The notes under the pieces are model-generated. The model made no database searches and had not been told where the DNA came from. It saw nothing but the letters and a program-made list of their open reading frames with translations. Below are positions 38,118-50,692 of a stretch of 53,516 nucleotides of DNA, in pieces (positions within the stretch are counted from its first letter, which is position 1; each line of letters opens with the position of its first letter). A program made the position numbers and the translations under genes. The stretch is from Candidatus Aminicenantota bacterium (GTDB taxonomy: Bacteria > Acidobacteriota > Aminicenantia > JAMOAD01): contig JAMOUT010000029.1 of the NCBI GenBank assembly GCA_027061995.1, positions 1-53,516 on the forward strand. The letters run 5' to 3'.

Positions 38118-38360
38118 ATGAGCACAGGAGTAGAAATATCAATAATAAGAAGCATGGTAAAGTCATACAAGCCGTCTTCAAGCAAACAAAAAAATACGGA
38201 ATCAAAAAATAATAACAAAAATAACTTAAATAAAACGGATAATCTTTCCCATTTCAAACAAAAAAATGACATTTTAAAAGAGATTTCTTCATATACAATA
38301 GATGGAACAATCGAACGAATAGCCTCTGAAAACAGGAATCTTGTGGATATCTTGGGGTAA
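38118..38360 (+). CDS. Small polar protein of unknown function
   Basis: This 80-residue protein is preceded by GAGGTATAAAGG. Its middle (about residues 18-50) is a disordered-looking Ser/Lys/Asn-rich stretch. A short helical N terminus (VEISIIRSMVKSY) and an ordered-looking C terminus (DILKEISSYTIDGTIERIA) flank it. It lies 37 bases before the kinase-like gene and may encode its partner. I do not recognise a family; an anti-sigma-like peptide is one unsupported thought. Confidence 0.6.
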   Translation: MSTGVEISIIRSMVKSYKPSSSKQKNTESKNNNKNNLNKTDNLSHFKQKNDILKEISSYTIDGTIERIASENRNLVDILG

Positions 38361-38397
38361 TGGCATGATTTTTGATACTCATTTATCGGAGGTTATG

Positions 38398-39486
38398 ATG
38401 AAGATAGCTGTTATCAATAATAGTAAACTCGTAAAATTAATTAAACAAACTGATATCGGAAAACAAGAAGGTGTCGTAGAAATAAATATCAAAAATATTA
38501 ATAAGCAAAACCAACTCATAGTCGTAAGCTATGAAGATTTCATAAAAGAAAAAGATATGTTTGAAAATATCCCTGTTATAATATTTGCAAAGACAACCCA
38601 ACTGAGAAAAACAATAACTTATCTAAGAAAAGGAGTCATAGATATAATTCCCGAAGATGCGAGTATTAAGGAGATAAACGAGATACTTACAAATTCCATG
38701 GAGGCTTTTAATCTATTCAAAAAGAGAGAAGAAAATTCCGAACTCAAAGAGTTAAAAGAACTATTATCAAATTTTGTTTTTACTTTTCCTCTTGAAGATG
38801 GTCTTGAAAAAAGCGCAAGATATCTCCAAAAGAAAACAGGGGCTGAAAGAGTTTTTATTGCGGTAGTAAAAAGAGGAAGAGAGAAAATTATAAGCGGAAT
38901 AGGTAGGGATTTTGATAATATTGTAAAAAAGTATAAGAAAATAAAAAATTCTCCGTGGGTTGAACTCTTAAAAATAAAAAAAGATATCTTGATTAATGAA
39001 AACAGTGATAAAGAAAACATTCATCCTTTCGGATTTATAAAAATTCCCCTTTTTATAAAAAATGAGTTAATGGGAATAATAACTCTTGATAATTATAAGA
39101 GAAAACTAAATACGGACTTTAACAAAGAACTTATCTCATCGGCGGCAATGTTAATCTCAATGCATATTGAAAATTACAGAGTTTATGTGGAAACAATAAA
39201 AACAAAAGAGTTATTAAAAGAGAAAGAACAAAAAGAGATTCTTGAAAAATTGGTCAATAGTCTTCACCATGAGATAAATAATCCGTTAACAGTCGCTTAT
39301 CTTAATCTTGAATCATTAAAAAGGAAAATGGAAAATCCAAACGGGATATCAAAGAATCTTGACGGACTTGAAGTATCTCTTGAAAGAATCAAAGATATAA
39401 TGGATAATGTTAATAAAGTAAGTTCGGGTAAATTTTTAATGATAATGAGAAACAGAGATCTGTTTAATTTTAGATATGAAGCATAA
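38398..39486 (+). CDS. Pseudo-receiver-GAF-DHp signalling protein lacking a kinase ATPase domain
   Basis: The product is 362 residues in three parts. Residues 1-100 look like a receiver fold, but the phospho-acceptor Asp position reads IVVSYED and the conserved Lys is absent (IIPEDAS). Residues about 125-262 fit a GAF sensor domain. A charged coiled coil leads to a histidine-kinase dimerisation domain with H-box SLHHEINNPLTVAYLNLESL (H291). The protein stops after the second DHp helix; no HATPase_c domain follows. Of two adjacent ATGs (38395, 38398) the second is better spaced from GGAGG. The TPR gene start overlaps its end. By inference it is a phospho-relay or regulatory partner of another kinase. 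Confidence 0.78.
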   Translation: MKIAVINNSKLVKLIKQTDIGKQEGVVEINIKNINKQNQLIVVSYEDFIKEKDMFENIPVIIFAKTTQLRKTITYLRKGVIDIIPEDASIKEINEILTNSMEAFNLFKKREENSELKELKELLSNFVFTFPLEDGLEKSARYLQKKTGAERVFIAVVKRGREKIISGIGRDFDNIVKKYKKIKNSPWVELLKIKKDILINENSDKENIHPFGFIKIPLFIKNELMGIITLDNYKRKLNTDFNKELISSAAMLISMHIENYRVYVETIKTKELLKEKEQKEILEKLVNSLHHEINNPLTVAYLNLESLKRKMENPNGISKNLDGLEVSLERIKDIMDNVNKVSSGKFLMIMRNRDLFNFRYEA

Positions 39487-41364
39487 AAACATAATTGTTT
39501 CCTTTTTTTTTTATTCTTTATAACAATTTTTCTTTATCCGGATCTATTATCGGATGCGGAAACATATTTTAAAAACAAAGATTATCAATCCGTAATTCTC
39601 ACGATAGAGCAATATTATAAGAAAAACCCGAAATCCGAGGATTTAAGAGCAAAATATCTGCTCGGTATATCATATATTAAAACCGATAAAAACAAAACAA
39701 AAGGGATAAAACTTTTGGAAGATTATTTTAGAAAAGGGGGGCAGTTTAATAATCCCGAGCCATTAATTCGAATTTATGATTTTTATAATAAAACAATTGA
39801 TCGTAAAAAAGCGATGTTTTATCTTAAGATATTATTTAATAATTTCCCTTACAAGCCGGAAATCATAAAATTAAAATTGGAATACATAAAAAAAATGTTA
39901 TTATTGCATAATTGGAGTGAAGCGCTTTTTTATCTGATTGATCTCGAAGATAAGAATCTTTCCAAAAAATATCCTATTATTTTTTTTTATATCGCACAGG
40001 CATATTACCAAAAAGAGACCTATGAAATAGCAGCACAATATTTCAGAAAATATCTGAAAATACAGCCCTCGTTGTTTCAATATAATGCCAAAGCATTGTT
40101 TATGATTGGAAAAAGCTTTTATTCGGTAGGAGATTTTAAAAAAGCTAAAAAAATTCTATCATACTTTATTAACATATATCCAAAATCAACGGATACACCC
40201 GAAGCATTATTCATTCTCGGAGATATTCTATTAGCCCAAAAAAAATATATTTTATCCGCAACATATCTTTATGATTTAATGAATAGATTTCCCGACAGTA
40301 AGATATCAAACAGAGCAAGAATCAAACTTGCGGATTGCGTGGCTTTCCTTAATAAGAAACAGATGAAAAAACTTAAGATACCATATTATCTGAAAAAACC
40401 GGATAAAGTTTATAAAAAAATTATTGAAAAATCTTATAATCTCGAAGATAAGCATTTTGCATTCGTCAAATTAATAGAATACTATAATCGAACGGGAGAG
40501 ATTGAAACCGGTCTGTTCTATCTTTTTCAATATCTTAAGAAAAAAATTGTTGAGCCTGAAGGGGAAAGAATTTACAGAAAATATTTCAATAGATTTATCA
40601 CACAAACAAAAGATAAATCCAGAATAATAGACTATTTTTTAAGAACGGGAAAAGATACCGCTTTTTTAAAAGTGAACTCAATAAAAAAACTTATAAAAAT
40701 CATGGAGGAATTGTCTCTTTATAAGACGGAAAAACTTTTATTAAACAGATTATATATTCTTGCAATTGACAGAGAAACCAAAAAGACGGCTCTTCTCGGT
40801 CTTATCAACAACTCTTATAATAGAAGGGATTGGAAGGAGTTCATAAAATATTTCAAAGATTTCCAAACTCTTTATCCTACTGAAAAATTACCTCTAAAAT
40901 ACAGAATCTATCTCATCTATTATTACATGAACAATAAAAACATAAAGAAAGCTAAACAACTTATAGAGTTTAATTATAATGAAGCTTTAAAATCGGAATA
41001 TAAAAATACAATTGATATTTTAAAATTGAAAATATATATAGAAGATAAACAATGGGATAAAGCTTACTCTCTGCTTGAATCCATAACAAAAAGGAAATTT
41101 ACCAAAAACTCGGATAAAACAGATATACTAATCCCGGGAGCAATCATATATATCCAAAAGGGTAAAACAAAAAGAGCGATAAGAATGTTAAATCTTATTA
41201 TCAAAATACTGCCAAAACAAAAAGACTGGGCTCTTTTTAATCTCGGAAAAATATATTATAAAAAGGGAGATATTAAAACAGCTCAAAGATATTGGCAAAG
41301 ATTAAGGAATATTTACCCGAAAAGTTTTTGGACAACTCAAATTGATTTCATCAAAAATAGTTAG
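39476..41364 (+). CDS. Exported TPR-repeat protein, frameshifted at a T10 run
   Basis: ATG 39476 overlaps the previous gene and opens MKHKNIIVSFFF, a signal-peptide start, but hits a stop after the run of ten T at 39503-39512. The next frame is open from there to 41364 without stops. One more T, or a -1 slip, joins them into about 629 residues with a complete hydrophobic signal. The mature part is built of tetratricopeptide-like helical pairs, clearest at AQAYYQKETYEIAAQYFRKY, GKSFYSVGDFKKAKKIL and ALFNLGKIYYKKGDIKTAQ. This resembles periplasmic TPR scaffold proteins. The first internal start (TTG 39715) would give a protein with no signal and a cut first repeat. Confidence 0.78.
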
Positions 41365-41457
41365 AATTTAATTCATTCATCAGCCTCAAAGAACACTCAG
41401 TGAATCGCTTTTACAGCACCCTTCAAACCATTTTTCCTTACTATAATATTCAACATC

Positions 41458-41844
41458 TTAGCCACCTCCCGAAACACCCTCTATATTAACTCCCGTTGCT
41501 GCAACAGAACTTAAAACCCCTCGCAAATACCTCCCCTCTCTTGTTACTCACCACACCCCGCATAAGTCATATTTCCTTATCCCATTAATAGTTCGCCCAT
41601 ATGGGTATGGTATATATTGTTTTATCAATTGCATTTAGGTCAGTATCATCCATCTGATAATTATTTCTCGGATTACACATAATTAATAGCTTGATTCATA
41701 TCCCCCTCGTTAATACATTAATAATCCTTCGGATAACATGAGTTTTCCCGTAATTAATAGCATAACCCTCCTCAAATAATTTACTCATCTTATCTAAAGT
41801 AACAACTTTTATCTTATCATTGATTTGTTCCATGATTTTTTCAT
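41458..41844 (-). pseudogene. Decayed minus-strand gene of unknown family
   Basis: Three coherent peptide pieces follow one another on the minus strand in different frames. First is an N-terminal piece of 45 residues from ATG 41833 to TGA 41696 (starts MEQINDKIKVVTLDKM, contains YAINYGKTHVIRRIINVL). Then comes a piece with NYQMDDTDLNAIDKTIYTIP near 41600-41670. Last is a C-terminal piece at 41458-41547 (YLRGVLSSVAATGVNIEGV). A GAGG site and ATG at 41844 followed by six A suggest the original start lay there, with one A lost. I do not recognise the family. Remnants of a short transferred gene are likely. Confidence 0.4.
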
Positions 41845-41960
41845 GTTTAAAACCTCGTGTCAAAAAATGTTTTTGTTCAAATTTCAGAAAAAATTCCCGA
41901 GTTCAAGAAAGAAAAACATAAGAATTTCGGCCATACTCAGACAATTAACAATCACTACTA

Positions 41961-41989
41961 TTGACAAAAGGGTCAATATATAATATTTT
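41961..41989 (+). promoter_or_regulatory. Promoter abutting the rpiB start (leaderless candidate)
   Basis: TTGACA (41961-41966), 17 bases, TATTTT (41984-41989), five bases, then ATG 41995. A TATAAT also occurs at 41979-41984, but only 12 bases from the -35 box. Confidence 0.6.
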
Positions 41990-41994
41990 AAAGA

Positions 41995-42444
41995 ATGAAA
42001 ATATTAATCGGATCCGATCATGCCGGATATAACTTAAAGGTTGATATATTTAATTATCTGAAAGAGAAAGGTTATGATATAGAAGATGTGGGCACCTATT
42101 CACTTGATAGCTGTGATTATGTTGATTATGCCGAAAAGGTTGCATCGGGAGTATCGGCAGGTAAAGCGGAAAGAGGAATTCTCATATGCGGAACAGGACT
42201 CGGTATGAGTATTGTTGCAAACAAATTCAAAAGTGTAAGTGCAGCATTATGCACATCCGAATACCATGCAAGAAAATCAAGAGAACATAATAACTCAAAC
42301 ATACTTGTTATGGGTGGAAGAGTAACAACTTTTGAAATAGCGAAATATATTACCGATGCATGGTTCAAAACACCTTTTGAGGGAGAAAGGCATAATAAAA
42401 GACTTAATAAATTAAAAGATATTGAAAATAATAATTTTAAATAA
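41995..42444 (+). CDS. rpiB: Ribose-5-phosphate isomerase B
   Basis: This 149-residue RpiB interconverts ribose-5-phosphate and ribulose-5-phosphate. Signatures are [10 protein letters not shown] at the start, the catalytic Cys65 in [11 protein letters not shown]98 in [14 protein letters not shown], and the YHARKS motif. There is no ribosome binding site and a promoter ends five bases before the ATG. It heads the operon with glyA, DUF342, the nitrilase and nadE; rpiB-glyA adjacency is common in bacteria. Confidence 0.96.
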
Positions 42445-42461
42445 TATACCGGAGGTCTAAT

Positions 42462-43739
42462 ATGTTTGATAAAAAAATTACGGAACTTGATTATGATGTG
42501 GCAAAAGCAATATTTGATGAAGCTAACAGACAAAATAATAATATTGAACTTATAGCTTCTGAAAATTTTGTCCCGAATGCCATAATGGAGGCTATGGGCT
42601 CTGTTTTTACAAATAAATATGCGGAGGGATATCCGGGAAGAAGATACTATGGCGGATGCGAAAATGCTGATACTGTTGAAAGATTAGCGATAAACAGAGC
42701 TAAAGAGCTATTCGGTGCGGAGCACGCAAATGTGCAGCCTCATTCCGGCACACAAGCGAATATGGGAGTTTATATGGCTGTATTAAATCCCGGTGATACT
42801 GTTTTCGGAATGAATCTTTCGCACGGAGGACATCTTTCGCACGGTCATCCTCTTAATTTTTCGGGAAAACTTTATAATATTGTTCCTTACGGAGTAAATA
42901 AAGAGACTGAAACGATTGATTATGATGAGCTTGAATCTCTTGCTCTCGAACACAAACCAAAACTTATTATGGCTGGTGCGAGTGCTTATCCGAGAGTTAT
43001 TGATTTTGACAAAATCAGAAAAATAGCTGATAAAGTTGGAGCCTATATGGTTGTTGACATGGCGCATATAGCGGGACTTATTGCCGCGGGGATTCACCCC
43101 TCTCCCGTTCCTTATGCCGACTTTGTTACATCGACAACCCATAAAACCTTAAGAGGACCGAGAGGGGGATTTATTCTCTCTAAAAAAGAACATAAAAAAC
43201 TCTTGAATAGAGAGGTTTTCCCCGGAATTCAAGGCGGTCCTTTGGTTCATATTATTGCGGCAAAAGCTTTATGTTTTAAGCTTGCAATGACCGATGAATT
43301 CAAAGAATATCAAAAACAGGTTGTTAAAAATGCGAAAGCTTTATCGGAAGCACTGAAAAACAAAGGTTATAGAATAGTCTCGGGAGGAACTGATAATCAC
43401 CTTATGCTCGTTGATTTAACTTCAAAAGGGGTAACAGGAAAAGAGGTTGAAAAAGCACTTGATAAAGCGCATATTACGGTAAATAAAAACACTATACCCT
43501 TTGATCCGAACCCACCTCTTGTAACAAGCGGAATCAGACTCGGAACTCCTGCCGTAACAACAAGAGGGATGAAAGAGAATGAGATGAATGAAATAGCCGA
43601 ACTTATTGATGAAGTTATCACTAATATAAAAGATGAATCAATATTCGATAAAATAACTCAAAAAGTATATGATTTAACCTCATCTTTTCCACTATACCCG
43701 AATTTAAGAGAAGAATTTAAGAAAGAGATTAATAATTGA
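42462..43739 (+). CDS. glyA: Serine hydroxymethyltransferase
   Basis: GlyA is a PLP enzyme that moves the hydroxymethyl group of serine to tetrahydrofolate, giving glycine and one-carbon units. Signatures are [49 protein letters not shown], and the Schiff-base Lys in [14 protein letters not shown]. At 425 residues it is of usual bacterial length. CCGGAGG precedes the ATG, so it has an independent ribosome binding site inside the operon. Confidence 0.97.
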
Positions 43740-50675: not shown

Positions 50676-50692
50676 ATGGCATAATATTTGAT
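50676..50692 (+). promoter_or_regulatory. Sigma-54-like promoter before the pilin genes (imperfect)
   Basis: ATGGCATAATATTTGAT has GG (50678-50679) and TTGA placed where GG-N10-GC is expected; the -12 C is A here. Pilin genes are often sigma-54 controlled and an NtrC-type activator is encoded in this window. No better sigma-70 promoter is evident. Confidence 0.3.

Follow-up and report, generated by a model that had tools for sequence, protein, structure and literature searches.

A gene in the window (the whole 53,516-nt stretch of Candidatus Aminicenantota DNA that was analyzed) encodes a real, conserved signaling protein, not a truncation, in which a pseudo-receiver, a GAF domain and a HisKA/DHp hairpin are followed by a short tail and no ATPase domain (DHp-only protein). 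We consider it very probable that this protein belongs to a flagellar switch at all, and it probably acts there by restraining the true kinase or partnering it. As for its exact role, our leading but tentative explanation is that it is a CA-less accessory of an FlrBC/FleSR/FlgSR-like flagellar switch and would most likely act as a GAF-gated phosphatase, giving negative feedback.

The open reading frame was confirmed, with its C-terminal end 71 residues past H291, and a Pfam search of the protein placed HisKA at residues 283-339 (E 1.6e-8, above the cut-off). The HATPase_c domain with N, G1 and G2 boxes, which is expected of a HisKA histidine kinase, is absent from the protein. No HATPase family matched it at E ≤ 1, and the first gene 3' of it encodes TPR repeats, not an ATPase, in agreement with the claim of an earlier annotation by a model that saw only the DNA (the sequence-only reading) that no ATPase domain is present and no HATPase_c frame follows. 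The GAF domain named in that reading was sub-threshold in the window copy (GAF_3, 5.6e-3) and unambiguous in homologues such as L146 (1e-12 to 1e-14), in which a weak Response_reg match (2.5e-4) also remains. The structure prediction that had been proposed as a check was made with AlphaFold2 (mean pLDDT 82, pTM 0.52) and indicated an alpha/beta N-terminal domain, a long connecting helix, the GAF domain, the DHp hairpin and a low-confidence tail (residues 353-362), with nothing folded beyond residue 352; the hairpin reaches residue 342 of 362, so that the frame does end just past the DHp helices, as had been noticed. The top PDB structure matches were REC-GAF dual-sensor histidine kinases (6oap, 6oaq and 6ob8; E 1e-9 to 1e-11), on which the superposition was loose over the whole length (rmsd 7-8, TM 0.40-0.48). 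The N-terminal domain has no acidic pair after beta-1 (KIAVINNS), no Asp at the end of beta-3 (LIVVSYED) and, with IIPED where KP should stand after beta-5, no conserved Lys, and is therefore designated a pseudo-receiver, which bears out the earlier description of a degenerate receiver. The H-box had been described as intact with H291, and an alignment extended this to H291, E292 and N295, all present in the window copy and invariant across 20 homologues.

Table 1. Positions of the features in the window.
Feature	Position	Strand	Basis or remark
Sigma-28 -10-like element TCCGATAA	38090..38097	+	Upstream of small gene; no good -35 in the window's genome
Small protein, 80 aa, no known family	38118..38360	+	Conserved C-terminus ..DGTIERIA..NLVDILG
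Sigma-54 promoter core TGGCAT-GATTT-TTGAT	38361..38376	+	37 bases before DHp start codon; sequence match
CA-less kinase-like protein (pseudo-receiver, GAF, DHp, tail)	38398..39486	+	362 aa
Pseudo-receiver, residues 1-88	38398..38661	+	AlphaFold2 per-block pLDDT 86-95; REC-GAF PDB matches; weak Response_reg in L146
GAF domain, about residues 119-240	38752..39117	+	Pfam; AlphaFold2 model; GAF structures among PDB matches
HisKA/DHp hairpin, residues 276-342	39223..39423	+	Pfam HisKA; AlphaFold2 helices 243-309 and 314-342
H291-E292-I-N-N295 (phospho-acceptor His, kinase-linked Glu, phosphatase-linked Asn)	39268..39282	+	Alignment; PMC3510030
C-terminal tail, residues 343-362 (..MIMRNRDLFNFRYEA)	39424..39483	+	Corresponds to Y-x-x-G..(M/I)-(I/L)-x-L tails elsewhere
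Exported TPR protein	39476..41364	+	ATG overlaps DHp stop; body needs -1 shift near T10 run 39503-39512

Since truncation would yield just such a loss of the ATPase domain, we considered whether the gene is a truncated, decaying kinase or an assembly artefact. The gene is present as a single copy in the genome of the window, and full-length orthologues with about 32-45% identity were found in all four other genomes of the same family, in which the protein terminates in DFRYEA or DFSYEV. Orthologues from two further Aminicenantia genera and from other Acidobacteriota share this end point and a short conserved tail. In 17 of 17 proteins, drawn from several phyla, 68-75 residues separate the His from the C-terminus, with the tail Y-x-x-G..(M/I)-(I/L)-x-L recurring. 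Homologues that all carry a C-terminal HATPase_c, which the sequence-only reading had named as the sign of a truncated copy, were looked for and not found; the homologues end at the same place. With more than 17 proteins of several phyla ending alike and keeping their residues intact, and with a conserved promoter before the gene, truncation or artefact is scarcely credible, and the common end point rules it out. A profile search indicated seven carriers among the 142 genomes of the class Aminicenantia. A weaker profile match in G009 lay inside a 1260-residue frame, and matches in other Aminicenantia families at E 1e-6 to 1e-7 proved to be ordinary full kinases. A search of named genomes with the single protein gave no match, but an alignment-based search did. 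It revealed ATPase-less GAF-DHp proteins in Cloacimonadota, Latescibacterota and Bdellovibrionaceae, as well as one in Auribacterota that is anchored in the membrane; a search for the domain string in other genomes had been suggested, and GAF-DHp-tail proteins occur in these groups in addition to the Acidobacteriota.

The promoter before the gene was assessed by scanning for the sigma-54 consensus TGGCAY-N5-TTGCW. As a result, a core with 0-1 mismatch was found before the DHp-only gene in all 10 genomes checked, at 36-40 bases from the start codon in nine of them and at 59 in G148. Among 216 upstream regions scanned, only eight had one mismatch or less, all of them belonging to DHp-only, flgB or motA genes; those outside the DHp-only group were two flgB regions and the region of motA in the window's genome. 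Sigma-28-type promoters were found before the small gene that precedes the DHp-only gene, matching at 15 of 16 positions in G002, 14 of 16 in G021 and 13 of 16 in G135, and none of 141 background regions came within three mismatches of this 16-position pattern; the match is weak in the window's own genome. Separately, a near-perfect sigma-54 core (TGGCATAATATTTGAT) is present at 50677-50692 (+), where a type IV pilin-like gene cluster starts.

Linkage to a soluble kinase, an NtrC-type regulator and flagellar genes was found in other genomes. In three Acidobacteriota genomes (G148, G160 and G145), a full kinase comes directly after the DHp-only gene, and an NtrC-type regulator and flagellar genes such as flgB, fliE and fliF come next, with 4-base overlaps between genes in G148; in G296, too, a full kinase comes directly after the DHp-only gene, with homologues of flgB, flgC/fliE and fliF beyond it; the regulator is thus readable in three of the four Acidobacteriota genomes with the DHp-kinase order, in all of which the flagellar gene names were read from sequence. 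The same full soluble kinase also stands after the TPR gene in G135 and in G021, where an NtrC-type regulator comes next, and in six genomes the DHp-only gene and a full kinase lie in one operon-like run. In the window's family, the DHp-only gene is not adjacent to the kinase pair, which in the window's genome is located on another contig beside the flagellar cluster. Queried with the kinase of the G148 flagellar operon, seven Aminicenantia genomes each gave one and the same type of kinase as the best match, represented in the window's genome by G000:C2:40863-41555 (1.6e-37; runner-up, 8.6e-29). This kinase (G000:C2, about 40413-41591) and its regulator (about 41593-42918) are intact, with the catalytic motifs kept, including GAFTGA, and their contig also encodes FliA, FlhG, FlhF, FlhA, FlhB, FliR/Q/P/O, FliN, FliL, MotB and MotA, of which FlhA was identified by Pfam and the rest were read from sequence. 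The best NCBIfam scores of the pair were for AtoS/AtoC, far below the cut-offs, and we take the pair to be FlrBC/FleSR-like from its architecture, its operon and an N-terminal similarity.

These neighbors bear on two explanations in which another protein supplies the ATPase domain. The DHp-only protein may form a heterodimer or transient complex with the FlrB-like kinase, the ATPase domain of which would phosphorylate H291, so that the GAF domain tunes the output of the kinase, with the DHp-only protein either carrying phosphate or withholding it. This is a possibility that we regard as real but rather unlikely; it accords with the full kinase found in the same operon-like run in six genomes, with the invariance of H291 and the kinase-linked Glu292 in 20 homologues and with the report that the Glu at +1 matters for kinase, not phosphatase, activity (PMC3510030). 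In a tree of DHp domains (FastTree), however, 19 DHp-only proteins grouped together apart from the neighboring full kinases, with local support of 0.81, which is modest because the domain is short, and the H-box is SLNHEINNPL in the DHp-only proteins versus ELSHEIRNPL in the neighboring kinases, so that mixed four-helix bundles are not obviously favored. Phosphotransferases such as Spo0B also retain an acidic residue following the His. The other explanation, a split kinase completed by a separate RsbW-like ATPase, draws on a 131-aa HATPase_c_2 protein encoded two genes upstream, beside the operon, in genus g2 (G001, G003 and G004). It is highly improbable and was disfavored, since this adjacency is confined to genus g2 and is not seen in the window's genome, G002, G021 or G135, and since relatives of the RsbW-like protein occur in 39 of 142 class genomes, mostly without a DHp-only protein. 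The direction in which the sequence-only reading had pointed, a partner of another kinase, is the best supported; neither the flagellar context nor the sigma-54 promoter had been noticed in that reading, and it did not identify the likely partner.

The distribution of the protein was compared with that of FlhA. Within the class, FlhA was detected in 10 of 142 genomes, namely the seven carriers of the DHp-only protein, G136 and G056 (genus g25), and G072, in which it is a 250-residue fragment; none of the last three gave a DHp-only homologue when searched directly. Hence, the DHp-only protein is present in 7 of 10 genomes with FlhA and in 0 of 132 without, and its five carrier genera all fall within the six FlhA genera out of 51, although, with the genomes related to one another, a formal p-value would be optimistic. 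Across the phylum as a whole, FlhA was present in 92 of 297 genomes, and for most of these the DHp-only protein was not among the matches listed; as most flagellated Acidobacteriota thus appear to be without it, the protein would be accessory, not essential, to such switches. The restriction to flagellated genomes holds inside the class and is not strict for the distant proteins of family f33 (Holophagae-like), some genomes of which have the DHp-only protein without FlhA.

As a mechanism, we propose a switch with two core parts, a soluble kinase (PAS-HisKA-HATPase) and a regulator of the NtrC type that activates sigma-54, both encoded in the window's genome by the pair beside the flagellar cluster. 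The active regulator would switch on the DHp-only gene via sigma-54, and the product would dimerize through its DHp bundle, dock on the receiver of the regulator and take phosphate off it by means of Asn295, gated by the GAF domain or the pseudo-receiver. Such feedback would end the transcription of rod and hook genes, and the tail may hold the partner or cap the bundle, replacing the CA domain. FlgSR, FlrBC and FleSR are known to work at the flagellar checkpoint (PMC7064773), HisKA phosphatase activity depends on Asn or Thr at +4 but does not require the Glu at +1, a residue that serves the kinase reaction (PMC3510030), and EnvZ without its kinase catalytic domain is reported to have phosphatase activity (Zhu et al. 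2000, as cited in PMC3510030). Because the Asn at +4 and the Glu at +1 are both invariant, phosphatase action and phosphate acceptance are both compatible with the sequence. Against the phosphatase explanation, Glu292 would be dispensable for phosphatase chemistry and, together with His291, would fit phosphate acceptance equally well; the census of the class of proteins with HisKA and no HATPase gives no activity (PMC5847659).

It may also be conceived that H291 receives phosphate from one receiver, for example that of the NtrC-type regulator, and passes or loses it in the manner of Spo0B or ChpT, which the sequence-only reading had offered as analogues; this is improbable in our estimation. 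The acceptor His is intact, and the predicted dimeric DHp, with no kinase activity of its own, would be common to all three proteins. However, Spo0B keeps a degenerate CA-like domain, the pseudo-receiver of the DHp-only protein is unable to take up phosphate, and there is no gene for another receiver close by. ChpT likewise keeps a degenerate CA-like domain (PMC3433190), whereas the DHp-only protein has about 20 residues past the hairpin and no CA-like fold, so that the analogy is not supported. P2CS, which has phosphotransfer and incomplete HK categories for such proteins, places those with HisKA but neither HATPase nor receiver in the phosphotransfer category (PMC2716373). Since a regulator-driven gene for the phosphatase of that same regulator amounts to negative feedback, we place the phosphatase explanation first, phosphorylation in trans by the kinase second and the relay or sink third.

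The combination of domains had been called unfamiliar, but proteins with sensor domains, HisKA with the conserved His and no HATPase, the definition under which the DHp-only protein falls, were recognized in archaea in 2018, with phosphatase activity suggested and no partners given (Galperin et al, 2018; PMC5847659). The class is known, though unstudied, and the flagellar switch context, the candidate partner and the promoter would be new here; in contrast to that archaeal census, which names no partner or process, the present family is a defined bacterial one in which the tail is conserved, a kinase and a regulator can be named as probable partners, and the gene has a sigma-54 promoter and flagellar surroundings. 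FlgS, FlrB and FleS share the operon context, the sigma-54 control and the flagellar setting; they are complete kinases, whereas the DHp-only protein is an extra CA-less product encoded beside such a kinase. EnvZ without its catalytic domain resembles it as a lone HisKA domain acting as a response-regulator phosphatase, according to the same citation of Zhu et al. (2000), but is a laboratory fragment, while the DHp-only protein is natural. The papers searched, which left the subscription literature mostly outside, described no flagellar DHp-only or CA-less third component. HisKA proteins without ATPase have been counted for years, often annotated as kinases, with no known partner or process, and for the DHp-only group there are now candidates for the partner kinase, the regulator, the promoter and the phenotype, which makes the role directly testable. 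If the protein is a feedback phosphatase, it would also provide a way of turning off the flagellar rod/hook checkpoint, a task to which no dedicated protein is assigned in the papers searched. More generally, and with still greater reserve, we suggest that sigma-54 flagellar switches in several bacterial phyla may have a dedicated third component, a naturally occurring DHp-only protein in which a conserved tail stands in for the ATPase domain. It would be expressed from the switch's own promoter and, acting as a GAF-gated phosphatase or in a heterodimer, would set the time at which rod/hook transcription ends.

Several related proteins were observed outside the core group. FHA-like/GAF proteins ending in DHp and a tail (..YADGSSILKLG) are encoded in Holophagae-like Acidobacteriota of family f33 (L152 4657-6756 and L151 6189-7382). 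Short receiver-DHp proteins without ATPase and with a similar tail (L148 5144-5803, L149 5358-6041 and L150 1816-2511), of which those of L148 and L150 retain the phospho-Asp and Lys, are possibly a second branch of the same class. In Latescibacterota (L108 1381-7953), a FliA-like sigma factor, a full GAF kinase, a GAF-DHp-only protein and a single-domain receiver are encoded consecutively.

The small protein, the DHp-only protein and the TPR protein had been supposed to act together. Their genes stand in this order in all seven Aminicenantia members, with the contig of G001 stopping within the TPR gene, but the trio is not kept in other Acidobacteriota, in which the neighbors are the full kinase and NtrC-type regulator instead. 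The C-terminal pattern of the small protein is faintly reminiscent of FlgM; this assignment was rejected, the resemblance being vague and Pfam giving no FlgM match at E ≤ 10. The ATG of the TPR gene and its body are in different frames (39476-39520, with equivalents in L014, L003 and L015), and a -1 shift at the A9/T10 runs would give the TPR protein a signal peptide (MKHKNIIVSFFF|LFFITIF..). The same arrangement, with the start codon over the DHp stop and the frame change, is found in G001, G003 and G004, so that it is kept in four genomes of two genera, and is not found in G002, G021 or G135. The frame change would be explained by programmed slippage or by non-AUG re-initiation.
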